A stretch of DNA of 64,000 bases from Nitrospirillum viridazoti CBAmc (GTDB taxonomy: Bacteria > Pseudomonadota > Alphaproteobacteria > Azospirillales > Azospirillaceae): positions 868,001 through 932,000 of the forward strand of contig NZ_CP022111.1 in NCBI RefSeq assembly GCF_000730165.1, read 5' to 3'. Positions within the stretch are counted from its first letter, which is position 1. Each line of letters starts with the position of its first letter. The notes beneath the pieces were generated by a model, which made no database searches, was not told the origin of the DNA, and saw only the letters and a program-made list of their open reading frames with translations. Position numbers and translations under genes: made by a program. This document shows positions 30,380 through 56,555 of the stretch, one piece after another.

Positions 30380-32779
30380 TCAGGCGAGGGCCAGCCTACC
30401 GTTCTTAAGGGCCAAGCGTTTCTCGCCACCAGCCGGCACCGTCACCGCCACCACGTCTTCGCCTAACCGCACCTGCCAGCGTCGCGGCTGCGCGCCGGCG
30501 TTGCGCAAGGCCGCCTGCGCCAGGGTGCCGTCCTTCCAAGCCAGGTCCAGCCGGCCCTGGCCGCGCACCCGCACGCCGCGCAGGCTGCCGTGGCCCCAGG
30601 CGCGGGGCAGGGCGGGCAGCAGCTCGATATCGTCGCCGATGCTCTGCACCAGCATCTCCACCATGCCCGCCGTGCCGCCGAAGTTGCCGTCGATCTGGAA
30701 GGGCGGGTGGGCGTCGAACAGGTTGGGGTAGGTGCGGTCGGGCCCCAGCAGCAGCTTCAGGATCGCGTGCGCGTGGTCGCCGTCGCCCAGGCGCGCCCAC
30801 AGGTTCAGGCGCCAGCCCAGGCCCCAGCCGGTGGCATCGTCCCCCCGGATCTCCAGCGTCCTGCGCGCGGCCCTGATCAGGTCCGGCGTGCCGCGCCGGG
30901 TGATCTGGTCGCTGGGGTAGACGGCGTAGAGGTGGGAGACGTGGCGATGGTGGATCTCCGGCGCCTGCATGTCCCAGTCCTCCAGCCATTCCTGCAACTG
31001 GCCGGCACCGCCGATGCGGTCCGGGGGCAGGCGCTCGCGGGCGGCCGTCACCTTGGCGCGGAAGTCGGCGTCCTTGCCCAGGATTTCGCCGGCCTTGACG
31101 GTGATGGCGAACAGGTCGCGCAGGATCTGCCGGTCCATAGCCGGCCCGGCGCACAGCGAGGTGCCCAGGGGGTGCACGTTTTCCGGCGACAGCGACGGGT
31201 TGGTGACCAGCCAGTCGCTGCCCGGCAGGACCATGAGCGTATCCAGGAAGAACTGCGAGGCGCCCTTCAGGATGGGGTAGATGTCGGCGAGGAACGTCTT
31301 GTCCCGGCCATAGTCGTAATGGTCCCACAGGTGGCGGCAGAGCCACGCCCCACCCATGGGCCAGAGGCCCCATTTTGGGCCGTCAGGCGGCCCCACCACC
31401 CGCCAGACGTCGGTGTTGTGGTGGGCCATCCAGCCGCCGGCGCCGTACATATCCCGCGCCGCCCGCGCGCCGGTTTCCGACAGGTCCTTCAGCATGCCCA
31501 CCAGGGGCTGCACACATTCACCCAGGTCCACCAACTCCGCCGGCCAGTAGTTCATCTCGGTATTGATGTTGATGGTCCACTTGGATTCCCAGGGCGGATC
31601 CACCTGCTCATTCCAGATGCCCTGCAGGTTGGCGGGCTGGCCGCCGGGGCGGGAACTGTTGATCAGCAGGTAGCGGCCGTAGTTGAAGTAGAGGGTGGCC
31701 AGGGCAGGGTCGTCCTGCGGGGCGGCGGCGCGCACCCGCTCATCCGTGGGCAGGCCGGCGGCGGGCGTCGTCCCCAGGTCCAGGGCCACGCGGCGGTATA
31801 GGCGCTGATGCTCCGCCACATGGTCGGCCAGCAGCCGGGTATAGGGCTTGGCGGCGGCTTGGGCCAGGGTGGCGGCCGTCAGGGCCGCCGGATTGGCGCT
31901 GATGTCGTCGTAGCGCTTGTAGCCCGTGGCGGCGGTGATTAGCACCACGGCTTCATCCGCGTGGTCGATGACGATGCCGTCGCTGCCGGCCCGCACCGCG
32001 CCGCCGCTGGCAATGACCTTCAGGCGCACGGCGAATTTCAGCCGCCCCTCTATGCCGGAGCGGCTGGGGCCGGTGCCGGTCAGCAGCAAGCCGTCCGGGC
32101 CATCCGCCACCAAGGTGGCGTTCTGTGGCGTCAGCAGCGACAGGTTGGCGCTGACCAGGCCCGGCTTGTTGGCCGAGAGCCGGGTGACGATCACCTGGTC
32201 CGGCGCGCTGGCGAACACCTCGCGCGTGTGGGTGGACGACCAGGCGCCGTCGCCGCTGACAAGGCGGGTGGTGGTCACGGCGGTGTCCAGATCCAGCCGG
32301 CGGTGATAGTCGTGCACCGTGTCCAGGCTCTGGAACAGCAGCACGGCGTTGCCCAGCGTCTGATAGGGCATTTGCTTCAGGGGTTTGGCCATCAGCTTGG
32401 CGCCGGCCAGCGCCTCCGCCTCCAGATACTTGCCCTGGAAGATCAACTCGCGCACCTGCGGCAAGTTGGCCTTGGCCTCCGGATTCACGCCGTCGTAAGG
32501 CCCGCCGGCGTAGAACGTGTCCTCGTTCAACTGCAGCCGTTCCATGGAAATGCCGCCGAACACCATCGCGCCCAGCCGGCCGTTCCCCACGGGCATGGCC
32601 TCCACCCACTGCGCCGCCGGCTGGTTGTACCAGAGCGTCTGCGCCGGATCCGGGGTGGGCAGGGGCGCCACCGGGGCGGCGGACGGCGCTTCCTGCGCCA
32701 GGACGGGCCGCGCGGCGCTGGCCGACAGCAGGGCAGCGGCGCTGGCCATCAGGATTTCCCGGCGCGATATGCTGGACAT
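30380..32779 (-). CDS. Glycoside hydrolase family 95 (alpha-L-fucosidase type)
   Basis: The protein has 799 residues. The N-terminus has a twin-arginine signal (SRREILMASAAALLSASA). GH95 features follow: LWYNQPAAQWVEAMPVGNGRLGAMVFG, RLQLNEDTFYAGGP, the (alpha/alpha)6 barrel with NLQGIWNEQVDPPWESKWTI and WPAELVDLGECVQPL, and near the end FQIDGNFGGTAGMVEML. GH95 enzymes remove alpha-1,2-linked L-fucose or L-galactose, for example from xyloglucan side chains. ATG 32779 begins the Tat signal. It is divergent from a GH3 gene across a region with two LacI-type boxes. Confidence 0.93.
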   Translation of the reverse strand: MSSISRREILMASAAALLSASAARPVLAQEAPSAAPVAPLPTPDPAQTLWYNQPAAQWVEAMPVGNGRLGAMVFGGISMERLQLNEDTFYAGGPYDGVNPEAKANLPQVRELIFQGKYLEAEALAGAKLMAKPLKQMPYQTLGNAVLLFQSLDTVHDYHRRLDLDTAVTTTRLVSGDGAWSSTHTREVFASAPDQVIVTRLSANKPGLVSANLSLLTPQNATLVADGPDGLLLTGTGPSRSGIEGRLKFAVRLKVIASGGAVRAGSDGIVIDHADEAVVLITAATGYKRYDDISANPAALTAATLAQAAAKPYTRLLADHVAEHQRLYRRVALDLGTTPAAGLPTDERVRAAAPQDDPALATLYFNYGRYLLINSSRPGGQPANLQGIWNEQVDPPWESKWTININTEMNYWPAELVDLGECVQPLVGMLKDLSETGARAARDMYGAGGWMAHHNTDVWRVVGPPDGPKWGLWPMGGAWLCRHLWDHYDYGRDKTFLADIYPILKGASQFFLDTLMVLPGSDWLVTNPSLSPENVHPLGTSLCAGPAMDRQILRDLFAITVKAGEILGKDADFRAKVTAARERLPPDRIGGAGQLQEWLEDWDMQAPEIHHRHVSHLYAVYPSDQITRRGTPDLIRAARRTLEIRGDDATGWGLGWRLNLWARLGDGDHAHAILKLLLGPDRTYPNLFDAHPPFQIDGNFGGTAGMVEMLVQSIGDDIELLPALPRAWGHGSLRGVRVRGQGRLDLAWKDGTLAQAALRNAGAQPRRWQVRLGEDVVAVTVPAGGEKRLALKNGRLALA

Positions 32780-32913
32780 GGGCAGGCGACCTTCCCCTCG
32801 GTGGAGCAACAGTCAGGACAGGGGATCGGTATTCGGCGGACCCGCCAGGCCGCCGGCCGCGCTCGGGCGCCCGTTTCCTCCATCACCGGCGATCAGCGCC
32901 GCCGTTGCCGGTG

Positions 32914-32942
32914 ATCCTAATGTGACCGGTATCATGGAGCAA
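32914..32942 (-). promoter_or_regulatory. GH95 promoter with LacI-type box in the spacer
   Basis: Read on the minus strand, TTGCTC (32942-32937) and TAGGAT (32919-32914) form a -35/-10 pair 17 bp apart. Box TGTGACCGGTATCA (32921-32934) fills the spacer, the classical position for repression. Confidence 0.6.
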
Positions 32943-32954
32943 GGTGTGGCTCGC

Positions 32955-32983
32955 TTGCCCGCGCTGGATGATAGCGTTATCAT
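32955..32983 (+). promoter_or_regulatory. GH3 promoter with LacI-type box over the -10
   Basis: TTGCCC (32955-32960), 17-bp spacer and TATCAT (32978-32983) form a promoter. Box TGATAGCGTTATCA (32969-32982) covers most of the -10; the wider 18-bp element 32967-32984 is palindromic at 16 of 18 positions. Confidence 0.68.
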
Positions 32984-33140: not shown

Positions 33141-35735
33141 ATGAAGCACCGCATGGCCCTTCTGGCGTCCGTGACGCCGGCCTTACTGCTTGCGGCCCTG
33201 ACACCGCTCCAGGTCTCAGCCCGGCAAACCTCAAATCCCCCGCAGAAGGCAGCTTCCACCGTGACAGACAGCGCCCGCGGCGTCGCCCACCCTGAGCTGT
33301 GGCCGGCCGCCAAGAGCAAGGGCCTGGTGGACGCCAAGACCGAAGCCTTCGTGACCGGCCTGATGGCCAAGATGAGCTTGGAGGACAAAGTCGGCCAGAT
33401 GATCCAGGCCGACATTTCCACCGTAACCCCAGCGGACCTGGCCAATTACCCCTTGGGCTCCATCCTGGCGGGTGGCGACAGTGCGCCGGCGGGCGGCGAC
33501 GATCGCGCCGGCCCCGACAAGTGGGTGGAGACGGCGCGCGCCTTCCGTGCGGCCTCGCTGGCGGAACGGCCCGGGCACGTGGCCATCCCCATCATGTTCG
33601 GCATCGACGCCGTGCACGGCAACAACAACGTGGTGGGCGCCACGCTGTTTCCCCACAACTCCGCCCTGGGTGCCACCCACGATCCCGCCCTGATCCGCCG
33701 CATCGGCGTCGCCACGGCGCAGGAGACTGCGGCAGCGGGCATCGACTGGGCCTTCGGTCCCACCCTGGCGGTACCGCAGGACCACCGTTGGGGCCGGACC
33801 TATGAGGGCTATTCCGAGGATCCGGACATCGTGCGCCAGTACGCGGGCGAGATGGTGCTGGGCCTGCAGGGTCAGGCGGGCGCCGGCCAGGCGCTGCAGC
33901 ACGGCCACGTCGCGGCCTCGGCCAAGCATTTCCTGGGAGACGGCGGCACCACCAACGGGGTGGACCAGGGCGACGCCGACGTCAGCGAACAGGATCTGAT
34001 CCGCATCCATGCGGCGGGGTATCCGGCGGCGGTGGACGCCGGCATCATGACGGTGATGGCCAGCTTCTCCAGCTGGCAGGGTGCCAAGATGCACGGCAAC
34101 AAGTCGCTGCTGACCGATGTGCTGAAGGGCCGCATGGGCTTCGACGGCTTCATCGTCGGCGACTGGAACGGTCATGGCCAGGTGCCGGGCTGCACGGCGG
34201 ACTCCTGTCCCACCGCCGTCCTGGCCGGTCTCGACATGTTCATGGCCCCCAACGACTGGAAGGCGTTGTTCACCAACACCGTCGCCCAGGTGAAGGCGGG
34301 CGAGATTCCCATGGCGCGCATCGACGACGCCGTGCGGCGCATTCTGCGGGTCAAGGCCAAGCTGGGCCTGTTCGACCCCGCCCGCCCGTTCGAACTGAAG
34401 GATGGCGTCATCGGCAATGCCGAGCACCGCGCCCTGGCGCGCGAGGCGGTGCGCAAGTCTCTGGTGCTGCTGAAGAACAACGGCCAAGTGCTGCCGCTGA
34501 AGGCCAAGTCCCACATCCTGGTGGTGGGGGAGGCGGCGGACGAGATCGGCCGCCAGACGGGCGGCTGGACCCTGTCGTGGCAGGGCACCGGCAACAAGAA
34601 CAGCGACTTCCCCGGCGCCACCTCCCTCTATGAGGGCATCCGCCAGGCGGTGACCGCTGGTGGCGGCAGCGTGGACCTCAGCGCCGACGGCAGTTTCACC
34701 ACCAAGCCGGACGTGGCCGTGGTGGTGTTCGGTGAGACGCCCTATGCCGAGTTCCAGGGCGACATTCCCAGCCTGGAGTTCCAGGCGGGCGACAAGCAGG
34801 ATCTGGCACTGCTGAAGAAGCTGAAGGCCCAGGGCATCCCGGTCGTCTCCATCTTCCTGTCCGGCCGTCCGCTGTGGGTGAACCCGGAGATCAACGCGTC
34901 CGACGCCTTCGTGGCGGCCTGGTTCCCAGGGTCGGAGGGGGGCGGCGTGGCCGACGTGCTGGTGGGCGACCGCGCCGGCAAGCCGCGTTATGACTTCACC
35001 GGCACGCTCTCCTATTCCTGGCCCAAGACGGCGGCGCAGGCGACACTGAACCGGCTGCGCCAGCCCTATGATCCGCTGTTCCCCTTCGGGTATGGCCTGC
35101 GTTACGCCGACGCCGAGCCCATGACCGTGCCGCAATTGCCGGAGGTATCGGGCGTGGATGCGGCGGCGGCCAACATCGACACCTACTTCGTGAAGGGCCG
35201 CAACCCCGCACCGTGGAGCTTCGTGCTGCGCCACGGGTCCGCCAGCATGCCCGTGCTGGGCGACGGCACGGCGACCGAGGTGGCGGGCGTCCTGGCGCTG
35301 AAGCCGGTGGACGCCGGCGGCATACAAGGCGCTGGCCGTCAACTGAGCTGGACCGGCAAGGGGGAAGCCGCCATCGCCGTGACCGGCGGCAACGCCCTGG
35401 ACCTGACACGCCAGGCCAACGGCGCCCTGTCCTTGCAGGTGGACTATCGGGTGGATGAGGCGCCGGCCGGCACCGTCTGGCTGATTTCCGGCCCGGGGAG
35501 CGGCACCGGGCCCGCCATGCCGGGCGCCCTGGACCTGACCAGCGTGCTGAAGGCGGCCCCCGTGGGCCAATGGCAGACCCTGAAGGTCAAGCTGTCCTGC
35601 TTCAAGCAGGCGGGGGCCGACCTGTCCCGGGTTACCACCCCCTTCGCGCTCAGCACCAGCGGCACCCTGCGCCTGTCGCTGGCCACGGTGCGGCTATCCG
35701 CCGATCCAGCGGGCTCCATTTGTCCGGGCCATTGA
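33141..35735 (+). CDS. Glycoside hydrolase family 3 exo-beta-glucosidase with C-terminal extra domain
   Basis: The protein has 864 residues and a signal peptide (LLLAALTPLQVSA). The GH3 barrel shows MFGIDAVHGNNNVVGATLFPHN, GRTYEGYSEDP and the nucleophile motif FIVGDWNGHG (Asp341). The second domain has AWFPGSEGGGVADVLVGD and FPFGYGL. A further C-terminal beta domain of about 170 residues (from PWSFVLRHG) resembles that of ExoP-type beta-glucosidases. Expected to release glucose from beta-glucan or de-branched xyloglucan ends. AAGGA precedes ATG 33141. Confidence 0.92.
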   Translation: MKHRMALLASVTPALLLAALTPLQVSARQTSNPPQKAASTVTDSARGVAHPELWPAAKSKGLVDAKTEAFVTGLMAKMSLEDKVGQMIQADISTVTPADLANYPLGSILAGGDSAPAGGDDRAGPDKWVETARAFRAASLAERPGHVAIPIMFGIDAVHGNNNVVGATLFPHNSALGATHDPALIRRIGVATAQETAAAGIDWAFGPTLAVPQDHRWGRTYEGYSEDPDIVRQYAGEMVLGLQGQAGAGQALQHGHVAASAKHFLGDGGTTNGVDQGDADVSEQDLIRIHAAGYPAAVDAGIMTVMASFSSWQGAKMHGNKSLLTDVLKGRMGFDGFIVGDWNGHGQVPGCTADSCPTAVLAGLDMFMAPNDWKALFTNTVAQVKAGEIPMARIDDAVRRILRVKAKLGLFDPARPFELKDGVIGNAEHRALAREAVRKSLVLLKNNGQVLPLKAKSHILVVGEAADEIGRQTGGWTLSWQGTGNKNSDFPGATSLYEGIRQAVTAGGGSVDLSADGSFTTKPDVAVVVFGETPYAEFQGDIPSLEFQAGDKQDLALLKKLKAQGIPVVSIFLSGRPLWVNPEINASDAFVAAWFPGSEGGGVADVLVGDRAGKPRYDFTGTLSYSWPKTAAQATLNRLRQPYDPLFPFGYGLRYADAEPMTVPQLPEVSGVDAAAANIDTYFVKGRNPAPWSFVLRHGSASMPVLGDGTATEVAGVLALKPVDAGGIQGAGRQLSWTGKGEAAIAVTGGNALDLTRQANGALSLQVDYRVDEAPAGTVWLISGPGSGTGPAMPGALDLTSVLKAAPVGQWQTLKVKLSCFKQAGADLSRVTTPFALSTSGTLRLSLATVRLSADPAGSICPGH

Positions 35736-35805
35736 CGGTTAAATAGATTAATATGCTTTATTAATTGGGATCCCGGCTGCGGGGTCCGCATGGGAGGAAC
35801 CTTGA

Positions 35806-36555
35806 ATGAAGAAACGTACCGTCGCTGCCGCCCTGATGCTGGCCGGTCTGATGGCCGCCCCGGCGCTGGCCGAGGACAACAAGCCGCCCAGTGCTGAGCA
35901 GGTGGCCAAGTGGCACCAGGAAGAGGAAGACCGCCTGCACAACGACTTCGCCTACCTCAACCGTTATGCCGCGGACAATGAGAAGCTGAAGCCAGGTTCG
36001 GTGCAGGTGGTGTTCATGGGCGACAGCATCACCCAGCTGTGGGTGGATAAGACGCCCGGCTTCTTCACGCCCGGCCGCGTGGGCCGGGGCATCAGTGGCC
36101 AGACCACGGCGCAGATGCTGCTGCGCTTCCGGCAGGATGTCATCGACCTGCACCCCAAGGTCGTGCACCTCATGGCCGGTACGAACGACCTGGCCCAGAA
36201 CTGGGGGCCGGTATCGCCGCAGCAGCTGAAGAACAACATCATGAGCATGGTGGAGCTGGCGCAGAAGCACGGCATCACCGTGATCCTGGCCGGCATTCCC
36301 CCGGCGCTGGACTTCAAGTGGCACCATGGCCTGGACCCGGCGCCCAAGATCGCCGCGCACAATGCCTGGCTGAAGGACTACGCGGCCCAGGTGGGCGCCC
36401 TGTTCGTTGACTACAAGGACGTGGTGGGTGACGGCAAGGGCGACTTCAAGCCCGGCCTGGCGTCCGACGGCGTGCACCCGACCGAGGCCGGCTACGTCGC
36501 CATGGCCCCCCTGGCCGACAAGGTGGTGAAGGAAGCGCTGGCCAAGGCCAAGTAA
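35806..36555 (+). CDS. Secreted SGNH/GDSL-family esterase
   Basis: The protein has 249 residues and a signal peptide (ALMLAGLMAAPALA). SGNH blocks are complete: MGDSITQ with Ser74, a GRGISGQTT glycine block, AGTNDL with the oxyanion Asn, and DGVHPTEAGY with the catalytic Asp and His. Such enzymes in plant-polymer loci often remove O-acetyl groups; acetylated galactose on xyloglucan is a plausible target here, by context only. GGGAGGAA precedes ATG 35806. It lies 70 bp after the GH3 gene on the same strand. Confidence 0.88.
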   Translation: MKKRTVAAALMLAGLMAAPALAEDNKPPSAEQVAKWHQEEEDRLHNDFAYLNRYAADNEKLKPGSVQVVFMGDSITQLWVDKTPGFFTPGRVGRGISGQTTAQMLLRFRQDVIDLHPKVVHLMAGTNDLAQNWGPVSPQQLKNNIMSMVELAQKHGITVILAGIPPALDFKWHHGLDPAPKIAAHNAWLKDYAAQVGALFVDYKDVVGDGKGDFKPGLASDGVHPTEAGYVAMAPLADKVVKEALAKAK

Positions 36556-36579
36556 ACCCGCCGAACGTTGCCGGAAAGA

Positions 36580-36613
36580 CGAACGCCCGGGACTGGCTGG
36601 TTCCGGGCGTTCG
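36580..36613. terminator. Terminator between esterase and DUF418 genes
   Basis: A perfect 11-bp stem (36580-36590 with 36603-36613) has a 12-nt loop and is followed by GGTGTGTTT. It sits in the 65-bp gap between convergent genes. Confidence 0.75.
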
Positions 36614-36620
36614 GGTGTGT

Positions 36621-37865
36621 TTACGCTGCGTCCGCCAGCGCCGCCTTCGGGGTGTGGCGCAGGGGCAGGGACAGGGTGCGGAAGGTGGCGGCGCGCCAGA
36701 CCCATTCCAGCGGACCGTAGCGATAGCGGCGCAGCCACCAGTGGGCGACGGCGCACTGCAGGATGACGAAGGCCATGCCGCTGGCCACACTGTAGAACGG
36801 GCCCATGTAGCGATAGAGCCCCAGGCCGTAGCCGTAGAATAGCGGCACGAAGACCAGGGCCTGGGTGACGTAGCAGGTCAGGCTCATGCGCCCGAAAGAG
36901 GCCAGCGCCCGCAGCGGTGCCAGGGCCTGGAGGCGGGGATACAGCAGGACGAAGCCGCTGGCCCACATGGCCATCTGGGCCAGGCCGCAATAGGCGCTGG
37001 CCAGGTTCGTCACCTCATAGGCTGTCATGGCTGGCAGGCCGGCGCCCTCCGCCAGGCGCTTCAGGGGATAGAGCACGGCGAAGGCCAGCGCGCCGCTGGC
37101 TAGGATGCCCTGCAGCAGGCGGCGATGCTGGGATGCCCGCTCCAGGACGTGGTTGCGCCCCACCACCAGACCCACCAGGAACAGGCCCATCATCTGCATA
37201 TAGCGGCCAGTCTCGATGGTCCAGAAGGTGCGGGCCAGCACGCCCTGCCACAGGTTGGCCCTCACCACGTCCCAGAAGCCGCCGTTTGCGTAGATGGGCA
37301 TCAGGCCCTCATACACCGTCCAGTGGACGGGGACGGCCGGCGTGGGGGCGGTGCCGCTCAGCAGGCCCGCCACCTGCCACAGGGTGGGCGGCTGGATCAG
37401 CAGCACGGCCGCCTGGGCCAGCAGAACCCGATCGCCAAGGCGGTGCAGCAGCACCAGGGGGGCGCCCATGACGGCCAGGATGGTCAGGATGTCGCCGCAG
37501 TAGATCAGGCCGTGCAGATAGCCGATGGCGAACAGCACGGCCAGCCGCCACAGGAAGCGCGCGGACGTGCTGCCCGCCCGCCGCGACCAGCTGCCCAGGA
37601 TCAGGGAGAAACTGATGCCGAACATCAGGGCGAAGATGCCGTAGGCCTTGCCAGCGAACAGGAAGAAGGCCGTGTCGTGAGCCGCGGTGTCGAACGGCTT
37701 CAGCCAAGCCGGCGGCACGGCCGCATCGCTCAGGAAATCGAAATGCTCGATGGTGTGCAGCAGGAACAGGCCCACCAGGGCCGTTCCCCGCAAGGCGTCG
37801 ATGACGGTGATGCGGTCGCCCGATCCGTCCACACCCGATCTCGATGCGCTTCCCGATGCACTCAT
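36621..37865 (-). CDS. DUF418 (YeiB-like) membrane protein
   Basis: The protein has 414 residues and about ten membrane helices. It opens with DRITVIDALRGTALVGLFLLHTIEHF and has FAGKAYGIFALMFGISFSLIL, then a C-terminal block with FGRMSLTCYVTQALVFVPLFYGYGLGLY and GPLEWVWRAAT. This is the DUF418 family, distantly related to acyltransferase-3 proteins; its function is unknown. ATG 37865 is chosen by family alignment; the ribosome site is weak. It lies 64 bp after the halogenase-like gene on the same strand and may be cotranscribed with it. Confidence 0.87.
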   Translation of the reverse strand: MSASGSASRSGVDGSGDRITVIDALRGTALVGLFLLHTIEHFDFLSDAAVPPAWLKPFDTAAHDTAFFLFAGKAYGIFALMFGISFSLILGSWSRRAGSTSARFLWRLAVLFAIGYLHGLIYCGDILTILAVMGAPLVLLHRLGDRVLLAQAAVLLIQPPTLWQVAGLLSGTAPTPAVPVHWTVYEGLMPIYANGGFWDVVRANLWQGVLARTFWTIETGRYMQMMGLFLVGLVVGRNHVLERASQHRRLLQGILASGALAFAVLYPLKRLAEGAGLPAMTAYEVTNLASAYCGLAQMAMWASGFVLLYPRLQALAPLRALASFGRMSLTCYVTQALVFVPLFYGYGLGLYRYMGPFYSVASGMAFVILQCAVAHWWLRRYRYGPLEWVWRAATFRTLSLPLRHTPKAALADAA

Positions 37866-37929
37866 ATCAGGCCATCCCGTTGTTCTTCTTACCCCCTGGC
37901 TGGACATCTTCCCGGGGATGCCAGCGTTG

Positions 37930-39456
37930 TCATGCTGCCACCGGCCGGTCGGCGCGGCAATGCCGGTTGATGAAGTCGGCGTGGGTGGGCAGGGCGTCGG
38001 CCATGCGCCGGATGGCCTCGCGGATGCGGGCAAGGCGCGCCGTCACCTCCGCCTCCGGCATGACGTCGGCCACGGGGTCGTAGGAGTGCGGCTGGATGCC
38101 CTGGCCCAGGAACACGGCCACCCAGCTGGGCTCCGCGAACAACTGCTCATCAAAGCGGGCGATGCGGCCCCGGGCGCGGAACAGGTCGATCTTGTGCCGC
38201 AGGCTGTCGGGGATCTCCATGGTGCGGCAGTAATTCCACAACGGAGAATCGTCCCGCTCGACCGCATGGTAATGCAGGATCAGGAAGTCGCGGATCTGTT
38301 CGTATTCGATGTTGGTCAGGCGGTTGTACTCATCCACCGTCGCCTGCTCGAACCCGTCGCGGGGTAGCAGCGAGACCATGCGGAACAGGCCGCTCTGCAC
38401 CAGATGGATGCTGGTGGATTCCAGCGGCTCCATGAAGCCGGAGGCCAAGCCCAGGGAGATGCAGTTCTTGGTCCAGGAATTCCGGCGGCGCCCGGTGGTG
38501 AAGCGCAGCGGGCGCGGGTCGGCCAGGGGCCTGCCGTCCAGGTTGGCCAGCAGGGTGGCCGTCGCCTCGTCATCGCTGATGAAGCGGCTGCTGTAGACAT
38601 GGCCGTTGCCGATGCGGTGCTGCAGCGGGATGCGCCACTGCCAGCCGGCCGGCCGCGCGGTGGAGCGGGTGTAGGGCGTGATCGCCGCCACGCCCTCGCA
38701 CGGCACGGCCACCGCGCGGTCGCAAGGCAGCCAATGGGACCAGTCCTCATACGGGGCCTTCAGCGTCTCCCCGATCAGCAGGCCGCGGAAGCCGGAGCAG
38801 TCGACGAACAGGTCGCCCGCCACGCGGGTGCCGTTCTCCAGCACCAGGCTGTCGATGAAGCCATCGGGGGCGCGCCGCGTCACCTGGACGATCTTGCCCT
38901 CGGTGCGCTTCACGCCGTTGCGCTCGGCGATGCCACGCAGGTACTGGGCGTATAGGCCCGCGTCAAAGTGATAGGCGTAGGCGATGACGGGGCCGCCGGG
39001 TCGCGCGTCCGGTGCCGGCGGCTGGAACTTGCCCATGCGCGCTGCGACGGTGGAGGGGGAGTAGTCGCCGATGTCGCTGGTGTCGCCCTTGGCTCGCTGG
39101 CGCAGCCAGTAATGATGGAAGGACACGGCGTCGATGGTGTGGCCATGCGGCCCGAAGGGATGGAAATAGCGGTGGTTCAGCCGCGTCCAGTCCACGAACT
39201 CGATGCCCAGCTTGAAGGTGGCCTGGGTCTTGCGGACGAAGTCGACCTCGTCGATGCCCAGCAGATGGTTCAGGAACTGGATGGGGGGGATGGTGGCCTC
39301 ACCCACGCCGACGGTGCCGATTTCGGCGGATTCCACCAGTTCGATGGTGCCGTATCTGCCCTTCAGCACCCGGGCCAGGACAGCCGCGGCCATCCAGCCG
39401 GCGGTGCCGCCGCCCACGATCACGATCCTACGCCCGCTCCGCATCGCCTCGGCCAT
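37930..39456 (-). CDS. Flavin-dependent tryptophan-halogenase-like protein 1
   Basis: The protein has 508 residues. The FAD-binding GGGTAGW motif (residues 15-21), the candidate catalytic lysine Lys82 in ATFKLGIEF, the halogenase signature WQWRIP (272-277), and EPLEST (343-348), whose Glu corresponds to the active-site Glu of PrnA-type enzymes, are all present. Family members chlorinate or brominate indoles using FADH2 from a separate reductase; none is seen nearby. GGGAGG precedes ATG 39456. It follows a TBDT gene behind a hairpin. The substrate is unknown. Confidence 0.88.
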
Positions 39457-47704: not shown

Positions 47705-48657
47705 GGCGTTTCCCTTCCCTGGATATCTTATTCTCGCGGGTCAAAAAGGCCCGCGCGCGTTTTGGCCCGGAGTGCCGTTTTAATGCGTCACGCCGTAGTC
47801 ATATAAATGCATATGGAGATTCATGCGGACCTGCAACGGGAGAATGTTAGCGCTCCCATGAAAGTTGGTACCGGTCCCTTCACGAGGCGGGCGATTTTGC
47901 GAATTTATCAGCAAAATCAATATGCTCAACTATAGATATGTGTTGCGATAAGGGCACAGACGCCTCTTTTGGAGGAATTTTCGTCCCCTTTCCCACCCCT
48001 TTCGGGAGAGAGCGGGCGGGATGCGTGTCCTCCTGGCAGCTCAGTCCGCCACTCCATGCCAAGGGATTGATCCGTCTAATTTTGCGGGGGATTAGAGCGG
48101 ACACGTTTCGCGAATTGGGCGCGGTTAAGTCCTTTGCCGCCGGCTATGGCCATTATCGGGATCGCCAAGGGAATCTGCCGACGAGGGTGTCAGAATTTAC
48201 ACGTTAAAATAGCAGGCTTCATTGCTGGGAAATTGTGCATCTCTGCCAAGTCACTTCCAAACTTCAAATGATATAACCAACATAGATGTCAATTTAAAAC
48301 AACAGAAAGATATTACGTTGAGTGGTAAAAGAAAATATGCGGTTCTTGTCACAAGATATCTTGCGGCCATGCGAATCTGCTAAATATGATAATTTGTGCC
48401 AACTGGGGAATGCAGCCCCGCTGAAGCCGGGAGCCGCGAAGCCCGTGTTGTTCCGGCCATTTTGTTTGGCCTGGACGTATGAAACTTGACGGTGGCCAGG
48501 TCAAGGCCAAGAGTGCCGGCCGGCGCCCTCGTGGTCCGCTGAACAGCGCTTCCAAATACTCGCGGTTCCGGTCGCCGCGACCGTTTGTCCCGCCCTGGCT
48601 GTGGGGACGACCTACGCAGTCTATAGGCGTGCCCCAACGCGCAAGGAAATGCCCTTT
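47705..48657. other. Long non-coding gap upstream of TBDT 3
   Basis: The first 180 bp hold the TBDT 3 promoter. Beyond that nearly 780 bp contain no convincing gene. The 48190-48400 part is strongly AT-rich against the surrounding GC-rich DNA and has a 12-bp palindrome CAAGATATCTTG (48352-48363). It may be a decayed gene or imported DNA; I see no recognisable remnant protein. Confidence 0.5.
47808..47879 (-). promoter_or_regulatory. TBDT 3 promoter with two upstream LacI-type boxes
   Basis: On the minus strand TTGCAG (47836-47831), a 17-bp spacer and TATGCA (47813-47808) form the promoter. Box 1 (47845-47858, TGTTAGCGCTCCCA, identical to TBDT 2 box 1) starts 8 bp beyond the -35. Box 2 (47866-47879, TGGTACCGGTCCCT) starts 21 bp after box 1, the same spacing as at TBDT 2. 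Confidence 0.62.
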
Positions 48658-49215
48658 CTACTTGATAAGGGCGATGACCTTGCGGAAGCGCGGATGTTCC
48701 GCGCTTTCCAGCCATTCGAACACCGCCATTTCGGTGGTGATGATCTCCGCCCCCTCGGCCGCCAGGCGGCGCAGGCCGGCGGCCTTGTTCTCCACCGTGC
48801 GCGAGCCCACGGCGTCCTCTACCACGCAGACGCGGCGCCCCCGCTCCAGCAGCCCCAGCGCCGTCTGCAGCACGCAGACATGGGTTTCGCACCCCGTCAG
48901 CACCACGGCATGGTCCGGGGGCAGGCGATCCAGGAAGCCGGGCGCCGGCGTGGCGTCGAAGGTCATCTTGGCGATCACCGATGACGCGTCGGGCGCCAAT
49001 TCCGGCACGGTGGCGCCCAGGCCGCGCGGGTTCTGCTCGGTGAACAGGGCGGGAATGTCCAGCAGCGCGGCGGTGGCCAGCAGGCGCCGGGTGTTGGCCA
49101 CCACGCCGCTGCCACCCTGGATGGCCGGCATCAGCCGGGCCTGCAGGTCGATCACGGCAAGGGTGCTGCGGCGGGGATCAAGACGGGGCACGGCTAGGCT
49201 TTTCGGCTGGGGCAA
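48658..49215 (-). CDS. Isochorismatase-family cysteine hydrolase
   Basis: The protein has 185 residues. The fold shows STLAVIDLQARLMPAI with the catalytic Asp, a central Lys (IAKMTF), and the nucleophile Cys in TGCETHVCVLQTALGL. Relatives hydrolyse isochorismate, nicotinamide or related amides; the substrate here is unknown. The start is uncertain: TTG 49215 gives the full domain, GTG 49191 is possible, and neither has a good ribosome site. It lies upstream of TBDT 3 on the same strand but 950 bp away. Confidence 0.85.
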   Translation of the reverse strand: MPQPKSLAVPRLDPRRSTLAVIDLQARLMPAIQGGSGVVANTRRLLATAALLDIPALFTEQNPRGLGATVPELAPDASSVIAKMTFDATPAPGFLDRLPPDHAVVLTGCETHVCVLQTALGLLERGRRVCVVEDAVGSRTVENKAAGLRRLAAEGAEIITTEMAVFEWLESAEHPRFRKVIALIK

Positions 49216-49329
49216 AGGGGGTGAAACCCACTATGTGAGGGGCCGGCCGCATCGGCAACAGCGGCGGATCGCCTGGGGCAGACGCGAACGGCTAGGCCAA
49301 AAGTAAGGGCGTGCGCCGCCACACGGCCT

Positions 49330-49381
49330 TGGTAGCGGTATCAGACATGCGGATTGATTTGATACCGCTAACGCGTATGAT
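49330..49381 (+). promoter_or_regulatory. GH35 promoter with two LacI-type boxes
   Basis: TTGATT (49354-49359), a 16-bp spacer and TATGAT (49376-49381) form the promoter. Box TGATACCGCTAACG (49360-49373) fills the spacer. A second box, TGGTAGCGGTATCA (49330-49343), lies 30 bp upstream in inverted orientation, suitable for cooperative binding. TCATATAAAT follows at 49401. Confidence 0.68.
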
Positions 49382-49489
49382 CGCGCCCGGGTCACTATGA
49401 TCATATAAATGTGGCTAGTGCTGGATGGGATGGGGGCTGGCGTGACCGGCGCCCTGAATAAAGAGATACGGGCTTGGGAGGGCCTGCCG

Positions 49490-51142
49490 ATGATACGCGT
49501 TTCGAACATAACGAAGGCTGGGCGTTCCCTGCTGATGGCGGCCACCATGCTGTCCGGCCTGGCCCCGATGGCGCACCCCTCGGGGGCGCAAGCCGCCGAT
49601 GGGCACAGCGCTGAGATGCCGCGCCTGGTGCGTGAGGACGGCCGCTATGCCCTGATGGTCGATGGGGCGCCCTATCTGGTGCTGGGCGCCCAGGCCAACA
49701 ATTCCAGCAACTGGCCCTCGGTGCTGCCGCAGGTGTGGCCGGCGGTGGACCAGGTGCAGGCCAACACCCTGCTCATGCCCATCGCCTGGCAGCAGATCGA
49801 GCCTACGGAAGGCAAATTCGACTTCAGCTTCCTCGACACCCTGTTGGCCCAGGCGCGCGAGCACAAGAAGCACCTGGTGCTGCTGTGGTTCGGCACGTGG
49901 AAGAACAATAGCCCGTCCTACGCGCCGGATTGGGTGAAGCTGGACAACGACCGCTTCCCCCGTGTCGTGGAATCCAAGGGTATCATGCGCGGTTCCCTCT
50001 CGCCGCTGGCCCCCGCCACGCTGGACGCCGACAGGAAGGCCTTCGTCGCCTTCATGCGCCATCTGAAGCAGGTGGACGGCCAGCAGCACACGGTGCTGAT
50101 GGTGCAGGTGGAGAATGAGACCGGCACCTATCGTGCCATCCGCGACTTCAGCCCCATGGCGCAGAAGGTGTTCGACGGCAAGGTGCCCGACGATCTGGTG
50201 AAGGCCCTGAAGAAGCAGCCCGGCACCTGGAAGGATGTGTTCGGCAAGGACGCGGATGAGTTCTTCCACGCCTACTACGTCGCCCGCTTCGTCGACCAGG
50301 TCGCGGCCGCCGGCAAGGCGGAATACCCCATTCCCATGTACGTGAACGCCGCCCTGCGCGACCCGTTCAAGGACCAGGACCCCTACAGCTATTCCAGTGG
50401 CGGCCCCACCTGGAACGTGCTGGACATCTGGAAGGCGGCGGCGCCCAACATCGACCTGATCGGGCCGGACATCTACGAGCGCGGCTACGATTTCTACACC
50501 AAGACCCTGGAACAGTATAAGCGGCCGGACAACGCCCTGTTCGTGGCCGAGACGGGCAACGACAGCGTCTATGCCCGCTATGTCTTCGCCACCCTGGGCC
50601 ACCAGGGCATCGGCTTTGCGCCCTTCGGCATCGACTACACCCGCTATGTGAATTACCCGCTGGGGGCGGCCAAGATCGATGCGGAGGCGCTGGAACCCTT
50701 CGCGATGAACTTCAAGCTGCTGGGCTCCCTGAACCGCGAACTGGCGGCCCTCAGTCTGAAGGGCAAGGTCTGGGGTGCCTCGGAGCCGACGGCCGAGCAT
50801 AGCAACACGCTAGACCTCGGGCCGTACAAGGTCACCGTCGGCTATGGCTTGCCGCAGTTCGGCGAGGCCAAACCCACCGGCAACGACAAGCCCTGCGGCG
50901 GCGTCGTCATCGCCGAGTTGGCGCCCAACGAATACCTGGTGGCGGGATATCACGCCCGCGTCGACTTCGCCCAGACCACCAAGGCCGGCAAGAACGGCTT
51001 CATGATGGCCAGCGTGGAGGAGGGGCACTTTGAGAACGGCAAATGGGTGTTCGAGCGCCTGTGGAACGGTGACCAGACCGACTACGGCCTGAACTTCACC
51101 TCCATCCCCCAGATCCTGAAGGTGCGGTTCGCCACCTACTGA
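49490..51142 (+). CDS. GH35-like beta-galactosidase with DUF5597 C-terminal domain
   Basis: The protein has 550 residues and a signal peptide (LLMAATMLSGLAP...AQAA). The barrel has GH35-type residues: VQVENETG with the candidate acid/base Glu210, and LFVAETGND with candidate nucleophile Glu354. The C-terminal 150 residues fit DUF5597, found in GH35-related beta-galactosidases. In xyloglucan loci such enzymes remove galactose from L side chains. ATG 49490 (GGGAGG 8 nt upstream) is chosen over ATG 49409. The GH31 gene follows 75 bp downstream. Confidence 0.88.
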   Translation: MIRVSNITKAGRSLLMAATMLSGLAPMAHPSGAQAADGHSAEMPRLVREDGRYALMVDGAPYLVLGAQANNSSNWPSVLPQVWPAVDQVQANTLLMPIAWQQIEPTEGKFDFSFLDTLLAQAREHKKHLVLLWFGTWKNNSPSYAPDWVKLDNDRFPRVVESKGIMRGSLSPLAPATLDADRKAFVAFMRHLKQVDGQQHTVLMVQVENETGTYRAIRDFSPMAQKVFDGKVPDDLVKALKKQPGTWKDVFGKDADEFFHAYYVARFVDQVAAAGKAEYPIPMYVNAALRDPFKDQDPYSYSSGGPTWNVLDIWKAAAPNIDLIGPDIYERGYDFYTKTLEQYKRPDNALFVAETGNDSVYARYVFATLGHQGIGFAPFGIDYTRYVNYPLGAAKIDAEALEPFAMNFKLLGSLNRELAALSLKGKVWGASEPTAEHSNTLDLGPYKVTVGYGLPQFGEAKPTGNDKPCGGVVIAELAPNEYLVAGYHARVDFAQTTKAGKNGFMMASVEEGHFENGKWVFERLWNGDQTDYGLNFTSIPQILKVRFATY

Positions 51143-51217
51143 TCCCGGTTGATCCGGCTTGGCCTCTGGGGCCGGGCCGGATCCCGCCTTCCCGATCTTC
51201 TCCCACGGAGAATCGCC

Positions 51218-54136
51218 ATGAACGTTCGTTCCTGGGCCTTGGCCTCTGCCGCTTTGGCGCCCGTGCTGCTGCTCGCCTCCTGCGAGACGGCCAAATCCCC
51301 GTCCGATGTCGCCGCCATGACGGCGCCGTCGCCGCCCTTCCAGCAAACCGCCGACGGCGTGGTGGTCACGGTTACCAGCGCCGCCGTCAAGAAGGTGCGG
51401 CTGCAGGTCATCAACGACCGCATCGTCCACGTCACCGCCGTGCCGGGTGACAGCCTGGATCTGCCCGCCAGCCTGATGGCCGTGGCCAAGCCCGCCACCG
51501 GCGGCTTTCAGGTGGCGGAGCACGGCGGCCAGGTCATTCTGACCACGCCGCAGCTGCGGGCCGAGGTCAGTGTCGCCAGCGGCGCCGTCAACGTCTTCGA
51601 CGCCAAGGGGCAGCCCCTGCTGACGGCGGTGGATGGCGGCAGCTTCGCGCCCGCCACCCTGCCCACGGGCGAGGCCGGCTTCTTCCAGGTGCGCCAGCAG
51701 TTCAACCGCGGCACGGATGAGGGCTTCTATGGCCTGGGCCAGCACCAGAACGCCCAGATGAACTATAACGGCGAGGACGTCGAACTCGCCCAGCACAACA
51801 TGGACATCGGCATTCCCTTCGTGGTGTCGACGCGCAATTACGGCGTGCTGTGGGACAACAACGGCATCACGCGCTTCGGCGATGCCCGCGAATACCCGCT
51901 GATGTCCAAGGAACTGAAGCTCTTTGATGCCGACGGGAAGGAGGGCGGCCTGACCGCCCGCTACTACCAGGACGGCAAGCTGAAGCTGACCCGCGTCGAA
52001 AGCGACATCAACTATCAGTACATCAAGGATCTGGCCGCCTGGCCGGAGGAGGTCGGCGGCAGCCGCGTCAACGCCAAGCAGCGCGCCACCAAGGACAAGT
52101 CCGTGGTGTGGGAAGGCAAGATCGAGTCCCCGGTGGACGGCGTCCACCGCTTTCAGGTCTATGCCAGCGGCTATTTCAAGGTGACGCTGGACGGCAAGGT
52201 GGTCATGGACCGCTGGCGCCAGGACTGGAACCCCTGGTACCACAATTTCGATCTGCCCATGGTGGCGGGCAAGGCCCAGACGCTGAAGGTGGAATGGGTG
52301 CCGGAAGGGGGCTTCATCTCCCTGATGCATCAGAACCCGTTGCCGGATGGGGAGCGGCATGAGCTGTCGCTGACCTCCGACGTCGCCCGCGCCATCGACT
52401 ATTACGTCGTGGCGGGCAAGGACATGGACGACGTCATCGCGGGATACCGCCAGCTGACCGGCAAGGCGGTGATGATGCCGCGCTGGGCCTATGGCCTGTG
52501 GCAGAGCCGCCAGCGCTACAAGACGGCCGACGAGCTGACCGGCACGGTGGCGGAGTTCCGCAAGCGCAAGCTGCCGCTGGATAACATTGTCGAGGATTGG
52601 TTCTACTGGCGCGAGGACGACTGGGGGAGCCACAAGTTCGACGCCACCCGCTTCCCCGACCCGCAGGGCCTGGTCGACACCCTGCACGGCCAGAACGCCC
52701 ACTTCATGATTTCCGTGTGGCCCAAGTTCTACCCCACCACGGACAACTATAAGGAGCTGGACGCCAAGGGCCACATCTACCGCCGCAATGTCGAGGTGCA
52801 TGAGCACGACTGGGTGGGCAAGGACGGCTATGAGAACGCCTTCTACGATCCCTATTCGGCGGAGGCGCGGCAAATCTATTGGCGCCAGATCAATGAGAAC
52901 CTGAACAAACTGGGCATCGACGCCTGGTGGCTGGATGCATCGGAGCCGGATACCCACTCCAACCTCGACATTCCGGAGCGCATGCTGCGCATGGGGCCCA
53001 CGGCGATGGGACCGTCGGCGGCGTTCTTCAATTCCTACCCGCTGATGCACACCAAGGCGGTGTATGAAGGCAACCGCGCCGCCAACCCCGACAAGCGCGC
53101 CTTCATCCTCACCCGCTCGGGCTTCGCCGGCCAGCAGCGCAACGCTGCGGCCAGCTGGAGCGGCGACGTTGCCTCGCGCTGGACCGACCTGCGCAACCAG
53201 ATCTCGGCTGGCGTCAACTTCTCCCTGTCCGGCGTGCCCAACTGGACGACGGATATCGGCGGCTTCGCCCTGGAAAAGCGCTATTCGGCCAAGAACCCCA
53301 AGGCGTCCGACGTGGCGGAGTGGCGGGAGCTGAACCTGCGCTGGTTCCAATTCGGCGCCTTCTCTCCCCTGTTCCGCTCGCATGGGGAGTTCCCGTACCG
53401 CGAAATCTATAATCTCGCGCCCAAGGGGTCGGAGGTTTACGACAGCCTGGTCTGGTATGACGAGCTGCGCTACCGCCTGATGCCCTACATCTACACCCTC
53501 GCGGCCGACACCTATCACCGCGACGGCACCATCATGCGCGGCCTGGTGATGGACTTCCCAGCCGATCGCCAGGTGTGGGACATCAATGACCAGTACCTGT
53601 TCGGCCATGCCTTCCTGGTGGCGCCGGTGACGGATTACCGGGCGCGCAGCCGGGCCGTGTATCTGCCCTCAGGCGCCCAGTGGTACGACTTCCAGACCGG
53701 CAAGCTGTATGACGGCGGCCAGCGCATCGCCGCCGACGCGCCCCTGAAGCGCATGCCCTTGTTCGTCCGTGCCGGGTCCATCGTGCCCACGGCGCCGGTG
53801 ACGCAGTACACGGGACAGATGCCGGACGCGCCGCTGACCATCGTCGTCTATACCGGCGCCGACGGCCACTTCGACCTCTATGAGGACGAGGGCACGACCT
53901 ACGGCTATGAGCACGGCGCCTTCAGCCGCATCCCGCTGTCCTTCGACCAGGCGTCGGGCACGCTGACCATCGGCACCCGCGCCGGCAGCTTCCCCGGCAT
54001 GGTGCAGGATCGTGTGATCAACGTCCGCTTCGTCGGGCCTGGTGCCCAGGCGGCCCCGGCCGACTTCACCGCCAAGCCAGACCAGACGGTTCGCTACACC
54101 GGGCAGGCCGTCACGGTAACGCGGGCCAAGGTGTGA
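51218..54136 (+). CDS. Glycoside hydrolase family 31 alpha-xylosidase with PA14 insert, lipoprotein
   Basis: The protein has 972 residues. A lipobox (LLLASC) predicts a lipid-anchored enzyme. A GH31 N-terminal domain (FYGLGQHQNAQMNYNGEDV) is interrupted by a PA14-like insert at about residues 243-385 (GGLTARYYQDG to GFISLMHQ). The catalytic barrel has the nucleophile motif WWLDASEPD (Asp573) and acid/base Asp650 in SWSGD. WLDASEPD and the PA14 insert are features of Xyl31A of Cellvibrio japonicus, which removes xylose from xyloglucan oligosaccharides. ATG 51218 follows ACGGAGA. Confidence 0.93.
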   Translation: MNVRSWALASAALAPVLLLASCETAKSPSDVAAMTAPSPPFQQTADGVVVTVTSAAVKKVRLQVINDRIVHVTAVPGDSLDLPASLMAVAKPATGGFQVAEHGGQVILTTPQLRAEVSVASGAVNVFDAKGQPLLTAVDGGSFAPATLPTGEAGFFQVRQQFNRGTDEGFYGLGQHQNAQMNYNGEDVELAQHNMDIGIPFVVSTRNYGVLWDNNGITRFGDAREYPLMSKELKLFDADGKEGGLTARYYQDGKLKLTRVESDINYQYIKDLAAWPEEVGGSRVNAKQRATKDKSVVWEGKIESPVDGVHRFQVYASGYFKVTLDGKVVMDRWRQDWNPWYHNFDLPMVAGKAQTLKVEWVPEGGFISLMHQNPLPDGERHELSLTSDVARAIDYYVVAGKDMDDVIAGYRQLTGKAVMMPRWAYGLWQSRQRYKTADELTGTVAEFRKRKLPLDNIVEDWFYWREDDWGSHKFDATRFPDPQGLVDTLHGQNAHFMISVWPKFYPTTDNYKELDAKGHIYRRNVEVHEHDWVGKDGYENAFYDPYSAEARQIYWRQINENLNKLGIDAWWLDASEPDTHSNLDIPERMLRMGPTAMGPSAAFFNSYPLMHTKAVYEGNRAANPDKRAFILTRSGFAGQQRNAAASWSGDVASRWTDLRNQISAGVNFSLSGVPNWTTDIGGFALEKRYSAKNPKASDVAEWRELNLRWFQFGAFSPLFRSHGEFPYREIYNLAPKGSEVYDSLVWYDELRYRLMPYIYTLAADTYHRDGTIMRGLVMDFPADRQVWDINDQYLFGHAFLVAPVTDYRARSRAVYLPSGAQWYDFQTGKLYDGGQRIAADAPLKRMPLFVRAGSIVPTAPVTQYTGQMPDAPLTIVVYTGADGHFDLYEDEGTTYGYEHGAFSRIPLSFDQASGTLTIGTRAGSFPGMVQDRVINVRFVGPGAQAAPADFTAKPDQTVRYTGQAVTVTRAKV

Positions 54137-54333: not shown

Positions 54334-54356
54334 GCCAGTTTTTACACAAAACTGGC
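54334..54356. promoter_or_regulatory. Palindrome upstream of lacI 2
   Basis: GCCAGTTTT and AAAACTGGC form a perfect 9-bp inverted repeat around TACAC. It lacks the central CG of the LacI boxes, so it may be a site for another regulator. Confidence 0.45.
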
Positions 54357-54365
54357 AGCAGGCGA

Positions 54366-54395
54366 TTGCGCAAATCCCAATGGTACTGCTATCAC
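54366..54395 (+). promoter_or_regulatory. lacI 2 promoter with LacI-type box
   Basis: TTGCGC (54366-54371), an 18-bp spacer and TATCAC (54390-54395) form a weak promoter. Box TGGTACTGCTATCA (54381-54394) overlaps its -10, as at the GH3 gene, and suggests autoregulation. The centre is TG, not CG, so the site may be weaker. Confidence 0.5.
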
Positions 54396-54447
54396 CGATG
54401 CAAACCGGCAGTGGATGCGCGGATCCGATAAGCGGAGCAGGAAGCGT

Positions 54448-55500
54448 ATGGAAAAGCGGCGTGGGCGGAGTTCGCAGGGGGTCACCATTCGTGAGGTGGC
54501 GGCGCGCGCCGGTGTTTCCCCGATGACGGTGTCCCGTGTCATCAACAATGAGAACAACGTCACGCCGGCCACCTCCGCCGCCGTGATGGCCGCCATTCAG
54601 GAGCTGAAGTACACGCCCAACCCGGCGGCCCGCCGTTTGGCGGGCTCGGAAACCTTCCGTATCGGCCTGCTGTACAGCAACCCCAGCGTCGCCTTCCTGA
54701 GCGAATTCCTGCTGGGCGCGCTCGACGAAAGCAGCAAGACCGGTCATCAACTGGTGGTGGAAAAGTGCGGTGCCACCGCCGCCACGGAAAAGGCGGCCCT
54801 GCAGAAGCTGTTGCAGAGCGGCGTCGACGGCGTCGTCCTGCCGCCGCCGCTGTGCGAGGCCAAAAGCATCCTGGCGGAGATCGCCAAGTCCGGCGTGGCC
54901 GCCGTGGCCGTGGCCGCCGGTCAGCCGGGCCCTGATGTCGCCACCGTGCGCATCGATAATTACAAGGCCGCGCACCGCATGACCCAGCACCTGCTGTCGC
55001 TGGGCCACCGCACCATCGGCTTCATCAAGGGCCACCCCAATCAGACCGTCAGCGACCAGCGCCTGCATGGCTTCCTGGATGCCCTCAGCGAGGCGGGGCT
55101 GGATCCCGCGGCGGCCCCGGTGGAGCAGGGCTACTTCAACTACCGTTCCGGCTTGGCGGCGGCGGATAAGCTGCTGGCCCTGAAGGACCGGCCCACCGCC
55201 ATCTTCGCCGCCAACGACGACATGGCCGCCGCCGTGCTGGCAACCGCTCACCGCCTGGGCCTGAACGTGCCGGTCGACCTGTCCATCGCCGGCTTCGACG
55301 ACACGCTGATCGCGGGGACCATCTGGCCGGCCCTGACCACCGTGCGCCAGCCCATCGCCGCCATGGGCCGCGCCGCCGTCAGCATGCTGCTGGACGAGGT
55401 CAAGCGCCGCCGCGGCGGCGGCACCAGCGCCCCGGCGCAGCAGCTGCTGCGCCACACGCTGGTGGAACGCGAGTCGACGGCGGCCCCCTCCGGAAAATAA
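54448..55500 (+). CDS. LacI-family transcriptional regulator (xyloglucan locus)
   Basis: The protein has 350 residues. The helix-turn-helix TIREVAARAGVSPMTVSRVI and hinge LKYTPNPAARRLAGS are followed by a sugar-binding domain with AIFAANDDMAAAVL and AGFDDTLIAG. A box like those at the neighbouring promoters lies upstream, making it the best candidate regulator for them. Inducer unknown; a xyloglucan-derived sugar is plausible. ATG 54448 follows AGGAAG closely, with GGAG 10 nt upstream. It is similar to the first LacI protein, including the C-terminal ESTA motif. Confidence 0.92.
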   Translation: MEKRRGRSSQGVTIREVAARAGVSPMTVSRVINNENNVTPATSAAVMAAIQELKYTPNPAARRLAGSETFRIGLLYSNPSVAFLSEFLLGALDESSKTGHQLVVEKCGATAATEKAALQKLLQSGVDGVVLPPPLCEAKSILAEIAKSGVAAVAVAAGQPGPDVATVRIDNYKAAHRMTQHLLSLGHRTIGFIKGHPNQTVSDQRLHGFLDALSEAGLDPAAAPVEQGYFNYRSGLAAADKLLALKDRPTAIFAANDDMAAAVLATAHRLGLNVPVDLSIAGFDDTLIAGTIWPALTTVRQPIAAMGRAAVSMLLDEVKRRRGGGTSAPAQQLLRHTLVERESTAAPSGK

Positions 55501-56543: not shown

Positions 56544-56555
56544 GCGAGAAAGCCC

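Follow-up and report, generated by a model that had tools for sequence, protein, structure and literature searches.

A candidate xyloglucan utilization locus of Nitrospirillum viridazoti and its apparent coupling to xylose oxidation through shared operator-like sites

The closest described counterparts of the locus considered here are the xyloglucan utilization loci (XyGULs) of Cellvibrio japonicus, in which xyl31A, bgl35A, a TonB-dependent receptor gene and afc95A lie together (PMC4285296), and of Xanthomonas citri (PMC8245568); these papers, and a report on xylose-regulon motifs cited below, are used in excerpt. In the excerpts on the Xanthomonas locus, the fucosidase XacAfc95 is specific for fucose, the xyloglucan acetylesterase of family CE20 is a modular SGNH protein of approximately 638 residues with an inserted X448 domain, and no beta-glucosidase gene was found (PMC8245568). 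The window analyzed here is a stretch of 64,000 nucleotides from Nitrospirillum viridazoti CBAmc (G000:C2:868001-932000), whose 7.38-Mb genome is assembled in four contigs. An earlier note had proposed an alphaproteobacterial XyGUL within it. All genes named in that note are present at or near the places it gave: the GH95, GH3, halogenase, TonB-dependent transporter (TBDT), GH35/DUF5597, GH31 with PA14 and LacI genes each yield a Pfam match above curated cut-offs (GH, glycoside hydrolase), and the SGNH esterase was recognized from PDB matches and motif blocks. Gene families, close kinship to characterized enzymes, and conserved operator-like sites suggest a locus of the Cellvibrio/Xanthomonas kind that would take up and dismantle xyloglucan, a reading to which we give a probability of about 0.87. 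Beyond the earlier note, we found a D-xylose operon from position 58388, shared LacI-type operator-like sites, and a GH74 gene on another contig; the functional unit seems to extend past 55500 into the operon.

The locus encodes a predicted GH31 alpha-xylosidase with a PA14 insert (51149-54136, plus strand; Pfam, with a lipobox pattern at residue 42). Among the 57 PDB sequences that match it at E<=1e-20, the first three are 2xvg (Xyl31A of Cellvibrio, CjXyl31A; 1198 bits), 7kmp (1176 bits) and 5jou (BoGH31A; 913 bits), all alpha-xylosidases, and the fourth is the alpha-xylosidase MeXyl31 (323 bits). A grouping with alpha-glucosidases, which the earlier note had named as one outcome that would refute a XyGUL, is not what was found, as these score lower and YicI reaches 115 bits. 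Here and below, 7kmp, 7kmn, 7kmq and 7kn8 are taken to be Xanthomonas citri enzymes and 3u7v to be Caulobacter CC0788, while Xyl31A, BoGH31A, Bgl35A and BoGH9A are the names given in the PDB listing. The identities of 7kmp and 7kmq are backed by the residues named for the Xanthomonas enzymes, which fit these sequences at constant shifts of +21 and -4, respectively, by manual count (PMC8245568). Five of these, W328 of PA14, W453, W524, D564 and D640 of XacXyl31 (PMC8245568), are identical in the window protein (7kmp alignment, manual count). The window protein groups with the PA14-bearing xyloglucan alpha-xylosidases and has their aromatic platform.

In the comparison that the earlier note had proposed, two other enzymes are also closest in PDB to xyloglucan-type enzymes. 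The predicted GH35 beta-galactosidase with a DUF5597 domain (49409-51142, plus strand; NCBIfam GH35, 516 bits at a cut-off of 500, and Pfam) matches eight PDB sequences, among them 3u7v (738 bits), 7kmn (712 bits) and the two Bgl35A entries 5jaw/4d1i (660 and 656 bits), and is of the Bgl35A/GalD type. The GH95 protein, a probable alpha-1,2-L-fucosidase (30380-32809, minus strand; Pfam GH95 catalytic domain, 574 bits; by pattern, a Tat-like signal motif), has 7kmq as its best PDB match (999 bits), followed by 4ufc at 686 bits and seven lower entries, and keeps the TININ and QID motifs. Family and nearest relative thus point to an alpha-L-fucosidase gene; the protein also has the same Thr as XacAfc95 at a debated position (PMC8245568).

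The GH3 protein with an Exop_C domain (33141-35735, plus strand; signal peptide by eye) is a probable beta-glucosidase; its best PDB match, 3usz (754 bits), is an exo-1,3/1,4-beta-glucanase. Only 70 bp downstream lies the gene of a single-domain SGNH/GDSL esterase of 249 aa (35806-36555, plus strand; signal peptide by eye), in which the GDSI, GTND and DGVH blocks are present and whose best PDB matches are GDSL-like proteins. None of its 26 PDB matches is named xyloglucan or sialate acetylesterase, NCBIfam models gave no match, and with its length and one domain it does not correspond to the CE20 type. An open reading frame (ORF) that overlaps this gene on the minus strand (35761-36990) has no Pfam match. 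We compared the locus with 55 related loci, whose flanks on either side extend to 10 kb at most and are often shorter. Relatives of the SGNH protein were found in six of them (L010, L011, L013, L016, L017 and L052), and esterases with a SASA domain stand in its place in L007 and L042.

Uptake would be served by TBDT A (39604-42537) and TBDT B (44831-47704), both on the minus strand, assigned by Pfam and 37% identical to each other. The query receptor was taken from a Massilia locus, L021, where GH95, receptor, GH35 and GH31 genes stand in a row. When the Nitrospirillum genome, with 105 receptor matches, was searched with it, TBDT A (603 bits) and TBDT B (561 bits) ranked far above the third match (128 bits); in this rank test with a single query, the two are kin to the xyloglucan-locus receptor. 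The endo-acting enzyme is probably provided by a GH74 protein with a lipobox encoded on another contig (C4:60487-62898), which in PDB comes closest to 7kn8 (520 bits) and 2cn2 (504 bits), the latter named beta-1,4-xyloglucan hydrolase. A match to this GH74 was found in all four genomes of the related loci L001-L004 and, across 15 genomes with such loci, in 10; it lies within the locus stretch itself in L007, L011, L021 and L042, and in L042 it adjoins LacI. GH5 and GH12 gave no genome match at E<=0.001, GH44, GH16 and other endo-glucanase families not being part of this search. Sortilin-type matches at C2:422579-423253 were rejected as GH74: they fall in a 507-aa frame that shows Asp-box-like repeats (by eye) over only part of its length and shares sequence with an aldehyde dehydrogenase gene, whose end it overlaps.

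Downstream, the xylX-xylB-xylC-xylD operon (58388-63071, plus strand; Pfam and NCBIfam) is assigned to the oxidative D-xylose pathway, of which it has the predicted xylose dehydrogenase, the lactonase, the dehydratase and XylX. XylB alone passes an equivalog model, that of the NCBI D-xylose 1-dehydrogenase (451 bits at a cut-off of 400); XylD was assigned by broader dehydratase models, and XylC and XylX were recognized by their Pfam domains and their place in the gene order. A sugar porter gene and then an aldose 1-epimerase gene follow xylD (L056:1216-3698), running beyond the window end. Between GH31 and this operon lies the gene of a LacI-family regulator (54415-55500, plus strand; Pfam), which is XylR-like by its neighborhood and 50-51% identical to the LacI proteins adjoining xylX in three Asticcacaulis loci. 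Among the 55 related loci, LacI occurs with xylX in seven.

The locus and the xylose genes are apparently coupled by shared operators. The palindrome TGNTANCGNTANCA, derived by eye from intergenic sequences of the window, occurs eight times with at most one mismatch, and every occurrence precedes locus genes, LacI or xylX: twice in the divergent GH95/GH3 promoter (starting at 32921 and 32969; 32921-32982), once each upstream of TBDT A (42671-42684) and TBDT B (47845-47858), twice upstream of GH35-GH31 (starting at 49330 and 49360; 49330-49373), once upstream of LacI (54381-54394), and once upstream of xylX (58350-58363). The TBDT and LacI sites have one mismatch each; the xylX site has none and is identical in L001-L004. 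All eight are intergenic, while intergenic DNA makes up 10.2% of 28676-63071 (computed from a gene list without the isochorismatase-like gene described below). The mean count in shuffled sequences is 0.39, and none of 100 shuffles reaches eight; the palindrome also ranks first among 1260 permutations of its half-site. Conservation offers better support for the proposed operators than these statistics. In L001-L004 and in the Asticcacaulis loci L042, L047 and L048, sites again precede GH35, LacI and xylX; of the two GH35-GH31 sites, both are found in L001, L002 and L004 and one in L003. A one-mismatch site approximately 50 bp upstream of the GH74 gene is kept in all four of its relatives. For Xanthomonas, a palindromic motif from the xylose regulon of Caulobacter has been reported upstream of xylose and receptor genes (PMC1790865, in excerpt), which fits the picture of a shared operator.

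Several observations weigh against a single regulon. The shuffle and permutation tests are not independent, because the pattern was picked after viewing the sequence; the runner-up permutation has seven sites, and with two mismatches allowed the excess becomes weak (14 sites against 9.4 expected, a count that 8 of 100 shuffles reach). In a survey of 27 of the 55 related loci, six (L005, L006, L008, L009, L019 and L021) have no site with at most one mismatch; the sole site lies inside GH31 in L024 and L031 and inside the aligned GH35 start in L038 and L055. Each of the remaining 17 has one or more sites in other places, in most cases ahead of a locus gene. Genome-wide, there are 82 such sites, of which 23 are exact, three of these in the window, and the reversed pattern has 187; hence the motif is not private to the locus, and other LacI paralogs may use the same pattern. 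A GH9 gene is an ambiguous case. It carries two operator-like sites (L060, 6338-8866) that are kept in five of five relatives having GH9, and its product weakly matches the Bacteroides xyloglucanase BoGH9A (6dht). However, genome G188 has the GH9 sites without a full-length xyloglucan-type GH31, and G192 has GH31 without GH9. Since GH9 does not track GH31, it was set aside as a sure regulon member and is not claimed for the regulon.

The genome-wide distribution of the pattern gives some room to an alternative that we consider unlikely yet the most serious of the rivals, namely that LacI controls the xylose operon only, the uptake and enzyme genes being under another LacI paralog with the same operator type. 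Some of the 82 sites indeed lie near other carbohydrate genes, for example in L062, the GH39/GH3/receptor/halogenase cluster described below, in L068 with a GH3 gene, and in L069 with a GH31 paralog. Against this, the LacI gene directly follows GH31 and has its own site, and the GH35, LacI and xylX sites are kept together in L001-L004 and the three Asticcacaulis loci. We therefore prefer one xylose-repressor regulon spanning the locus, though with less certainty than the xyloglucan reading itself; by neighborhood, identity and sites, LacI would be a XylR-type repressor with the palindrome as its binding site and xylose as its signal.

From these genes we infer the enzyme activities, their cell location, the binding of the sites by LacI, and the inducer, as follows. 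The GH74 lipoprotein would cut xyloglucan outside the cell, and the resulting oligosaccharides would be imported by TBDT A and B. In the periplasm, the SGNH esterase may strip acetyl groups, GH95 fucose, and GH35 galactose, after which GH31 and GH3 would alternate at the non-reducing end, releasing xylose and glucose. Xylose would then enter via the sugar porter and be oxidized by XylB, XylC, XylD and XylX. Acting on the common palindrome, the XylR-like LacI would keep the receptor and enzyme genes, its own gene and the xylose operon repressed until released by xylose or a xylose product.

Families GH95, GH35 and GH3 each include several specificities, and the locus might thus serve another galactose- and fucose-decorated plant glycan, with xyloglucan as a side substrate. 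The second match of GH95, 4ufc, is indeed an alpha-L-galactosidase according to the excerpts of PMC8245568. We regard this as highly improbable, as GH31 groups with xyloglucan alpha-xylosidases and the receptors with a xyloglucan-locus receptor, GH74 is present in the genome, and the xylose operon is near. The xyloglucan reading, as put forward in the earlier note, is the one with which the GH31, GH35 and GH95 matches to solved xyloglucan-locus enzymes, both receptors, and the genomic GH74 agree.

The grouping of the genes is likewise conserved: GH35 immediately precedes GH31 in 51 of the 55 related loci, which is beyond chance, and GH95 matches occur in 19. The window GH31 is 97% identical to its counterparts in two Nitrospirillum amazonense strains and 91% identical to those of N. 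iridis and Azospirillum sp. B4. Within the order, a full-length relative with at least 60% identity was found in 12 of 82 genomes (all of one family) and in two genera: in six of seven genomes of Nitrospirillum, at 87-100% identity, and in six of eleven of one other genus. The largest genus, with 45 genomes, had none, nor did the remaining 19 genomes. Four of the six relatives from the other genus have one stop in the aligned stretch. In a tree of GH31 with 56 rows, which includes no characterized enzyme and excludes L044 (stop in the aligned stretch), the Nitrospirillum clade has no resolved sister group, and therefore no donor is named. In the limited literature searched, three papers came up for Nitrospirillum with xyloglucan, each with a single mention of the latter. 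Bacteria of the genus Nitrospirillum fix nitrogen and are associated with plants, sugarcane in the case of N. amazonense. This habitat and the one Nitrospirillum genome without a full-length GH31 might hint that the genes are leftovers no longer working as a system. Grass-associated Xanthomonas species lack most of the locus, according to the excerpts (PMC8245568), yet the leftover reading is the least probable of the rivals, as the frames are open, the motifs looked for are kept, and six of the seven Nitrospirillum genomes retain GH31 at high identity.

The part of the locus that is still odd to a specialist is the pairing of its receptors with flavin-dependent halogenases, proteins defined by an FAD motif, catalytic Lys and Glu, and WxWxIP. 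Halogenase A (37930-39456) and halogenase B (43034-44707), both on the minus strand and assigned by Pfam, retain the FAD, Lys and Glu motifs as well as WxWxI; A has FK, EPLEST and WQWRIP, and B reads WTWDIG in place of the IP ending. The nearest solved relatives of A are 6y1w, 9luq and 6frl, the last presumably BrvH, and that of B is 2pyx. The promoters of TBDT A and B share the operator and its surroundings. A pure tandem duplication of the receptor-halogenase module was considered and rejected: the receptors are 37% identical and the promoters are alike via the operator, but the nearest solved relatives of the halogenases differ. The earlier note saw the locus as enlarged with an esterase and two such modules. 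The genes are indeed there; however, halogenases occur in 13 of the 55 related loci and so are not a special enlargement of this one, and the esterase is small and single-domain.

Of the eight halogenases of the genome, six have a receptor within 1.5 kb, and in five of these six the halogenase is directly downstream on the same strand. In a class sample of 115 genomes (halogenase threshold E<=1e-60; receptors found with eight receptors of the host genome), halogenases occur in eight genomes including the host, at 22 loci, 11 of which have a receptor within 1.5 kb (the host contributing 6 of its 8, G027 4 of its 8, and the remaining genomes 1 of 6). The pairing is common, not general. Two further clusters of the host have it: L062 (C4:630001-650000), with GH39, GH3 with PA14, receptor, halogenase, SapC and cupin genes, a second halogenase on the other strand, and three exact operator-like sites; and L066 (C3:1372001-1388000), with a receptor, a halogenase, two alpha-amylase-family genes and GH97, looking like a malto-oligosaccharide locus. 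In the limited literature searched for a halogenase-receptor link, the only items returned concern, by their listing, iron limitation and oil response. No signal peptide was seen by eye in the halogenases, and therefore an imported periplasmic sugar is unlikely to be their substrate. Speculatively, they might be working parts of carbohydrate receptor modules under the receptor's repressor, with an aromatic compound of the cytoplasm, or the receptor itself prior to export, as the substrate halogenated during uptake of wall oligosaccharides; we consider this decidedly doubtful. If true, halogenation would couple feeding on plant walls either with chemical signaling or with maturation of the receptor.

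Further genes lie within or beside the locus. A DUF418 membrane protein (36621-38033, minus strand; Pfam, 128 bits), whose start is uncertain and whose ORF overlaps the halogenase A gene, ends the receptor A-halogenase A unit; it has no match in the 55 related loci, most of whose stretches may be too short. An isochorismatase-like hydrolase (48658-49215, minus strand) is an extra gene within the span. An ORF of 275 aa opposite to it in the gap before GH35 (48479-49306, plus strand) has no Pfam family and for both reasons is probably not a gene. Upstream of GH35 in N. iridis (L004, 4536-7433), a further receptor, 49% identical to TBDT B, occupies the position of this gap, which in the window holds only the isochorismatase-like gene. 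Between LacI and xylX (55578-58267) lie genes of a metallophosphoesterase, a small cupredoxin-like protein (by eye; it looks secreted), an extracytoplasmic function (ECF) sigma factor and an anti-sigma factor; the metallophosphoesterase, sigma and anti-sigma genes are also present in L001-L004. Just upstream of the locus (23060-28634) are an RND pump with an outer-membrane efflux protein and a Phenol_MetA_deg protein.

In summary, the analysis points to a near-complete xyloglucan pathway in Nitrospirillum, within an order across which the full-length alpha-xylosidase has a patchy distribution. It offers a simple regulatory model, in which one xylose-type palindrome would cover receptors, enzymes, xylose oxidation and a GH74 gene on another contig. 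The occurrence of tryptophan-halogenase genes beside sugar receptors has been turned from an oddity into a countable association; the window pair shares the FAD, Lys and Glu motifs and WxWxI with the solved halogenases 6y1w, 9luq and 6frl (A) and 2pyx (B).

Comparison with known systems shows a known locus type to which a regulatory and metabolic frame is added. Asticcacaulis loci such as L042 share GH35-GH31, GH74, LacI, xylX-xylB and the sites upstream of GH35, LacI and xylX; L042 differs by a GH29-type fucosidase and a SASA-type esterase, with no GH95, halogenase or receptor match in the stretch examined. As in the Cellvibrio japonicus XyGUL, GH31, GH35, GH95 and receptor genes stand together, GH31 is probably lipidated, and the endo-enzyme is encoded outside the locus; the window adds GH3, the SGNH esterase, a second receptor, halogenases, LacI and the nearby xylose operon (PMC4285296, in excerpt). 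The Xanthomonas citri XyGUL, as far as the excerpts describe it, has in common with the window two TBDTs, GH31, GH35, GH95, an esterase, adjoining xylose genes with a sugar porter, and GH74 in the genome (PMC8245568). In contrast to that system, the Nitrospirillum GH74 gene lies on another contig, the esterase is a small GDSL protein and not a modular CE20 enzyme, xylose is, by gene content, oxidized and not isomerized, and the locus contains GH3 and halogenases.

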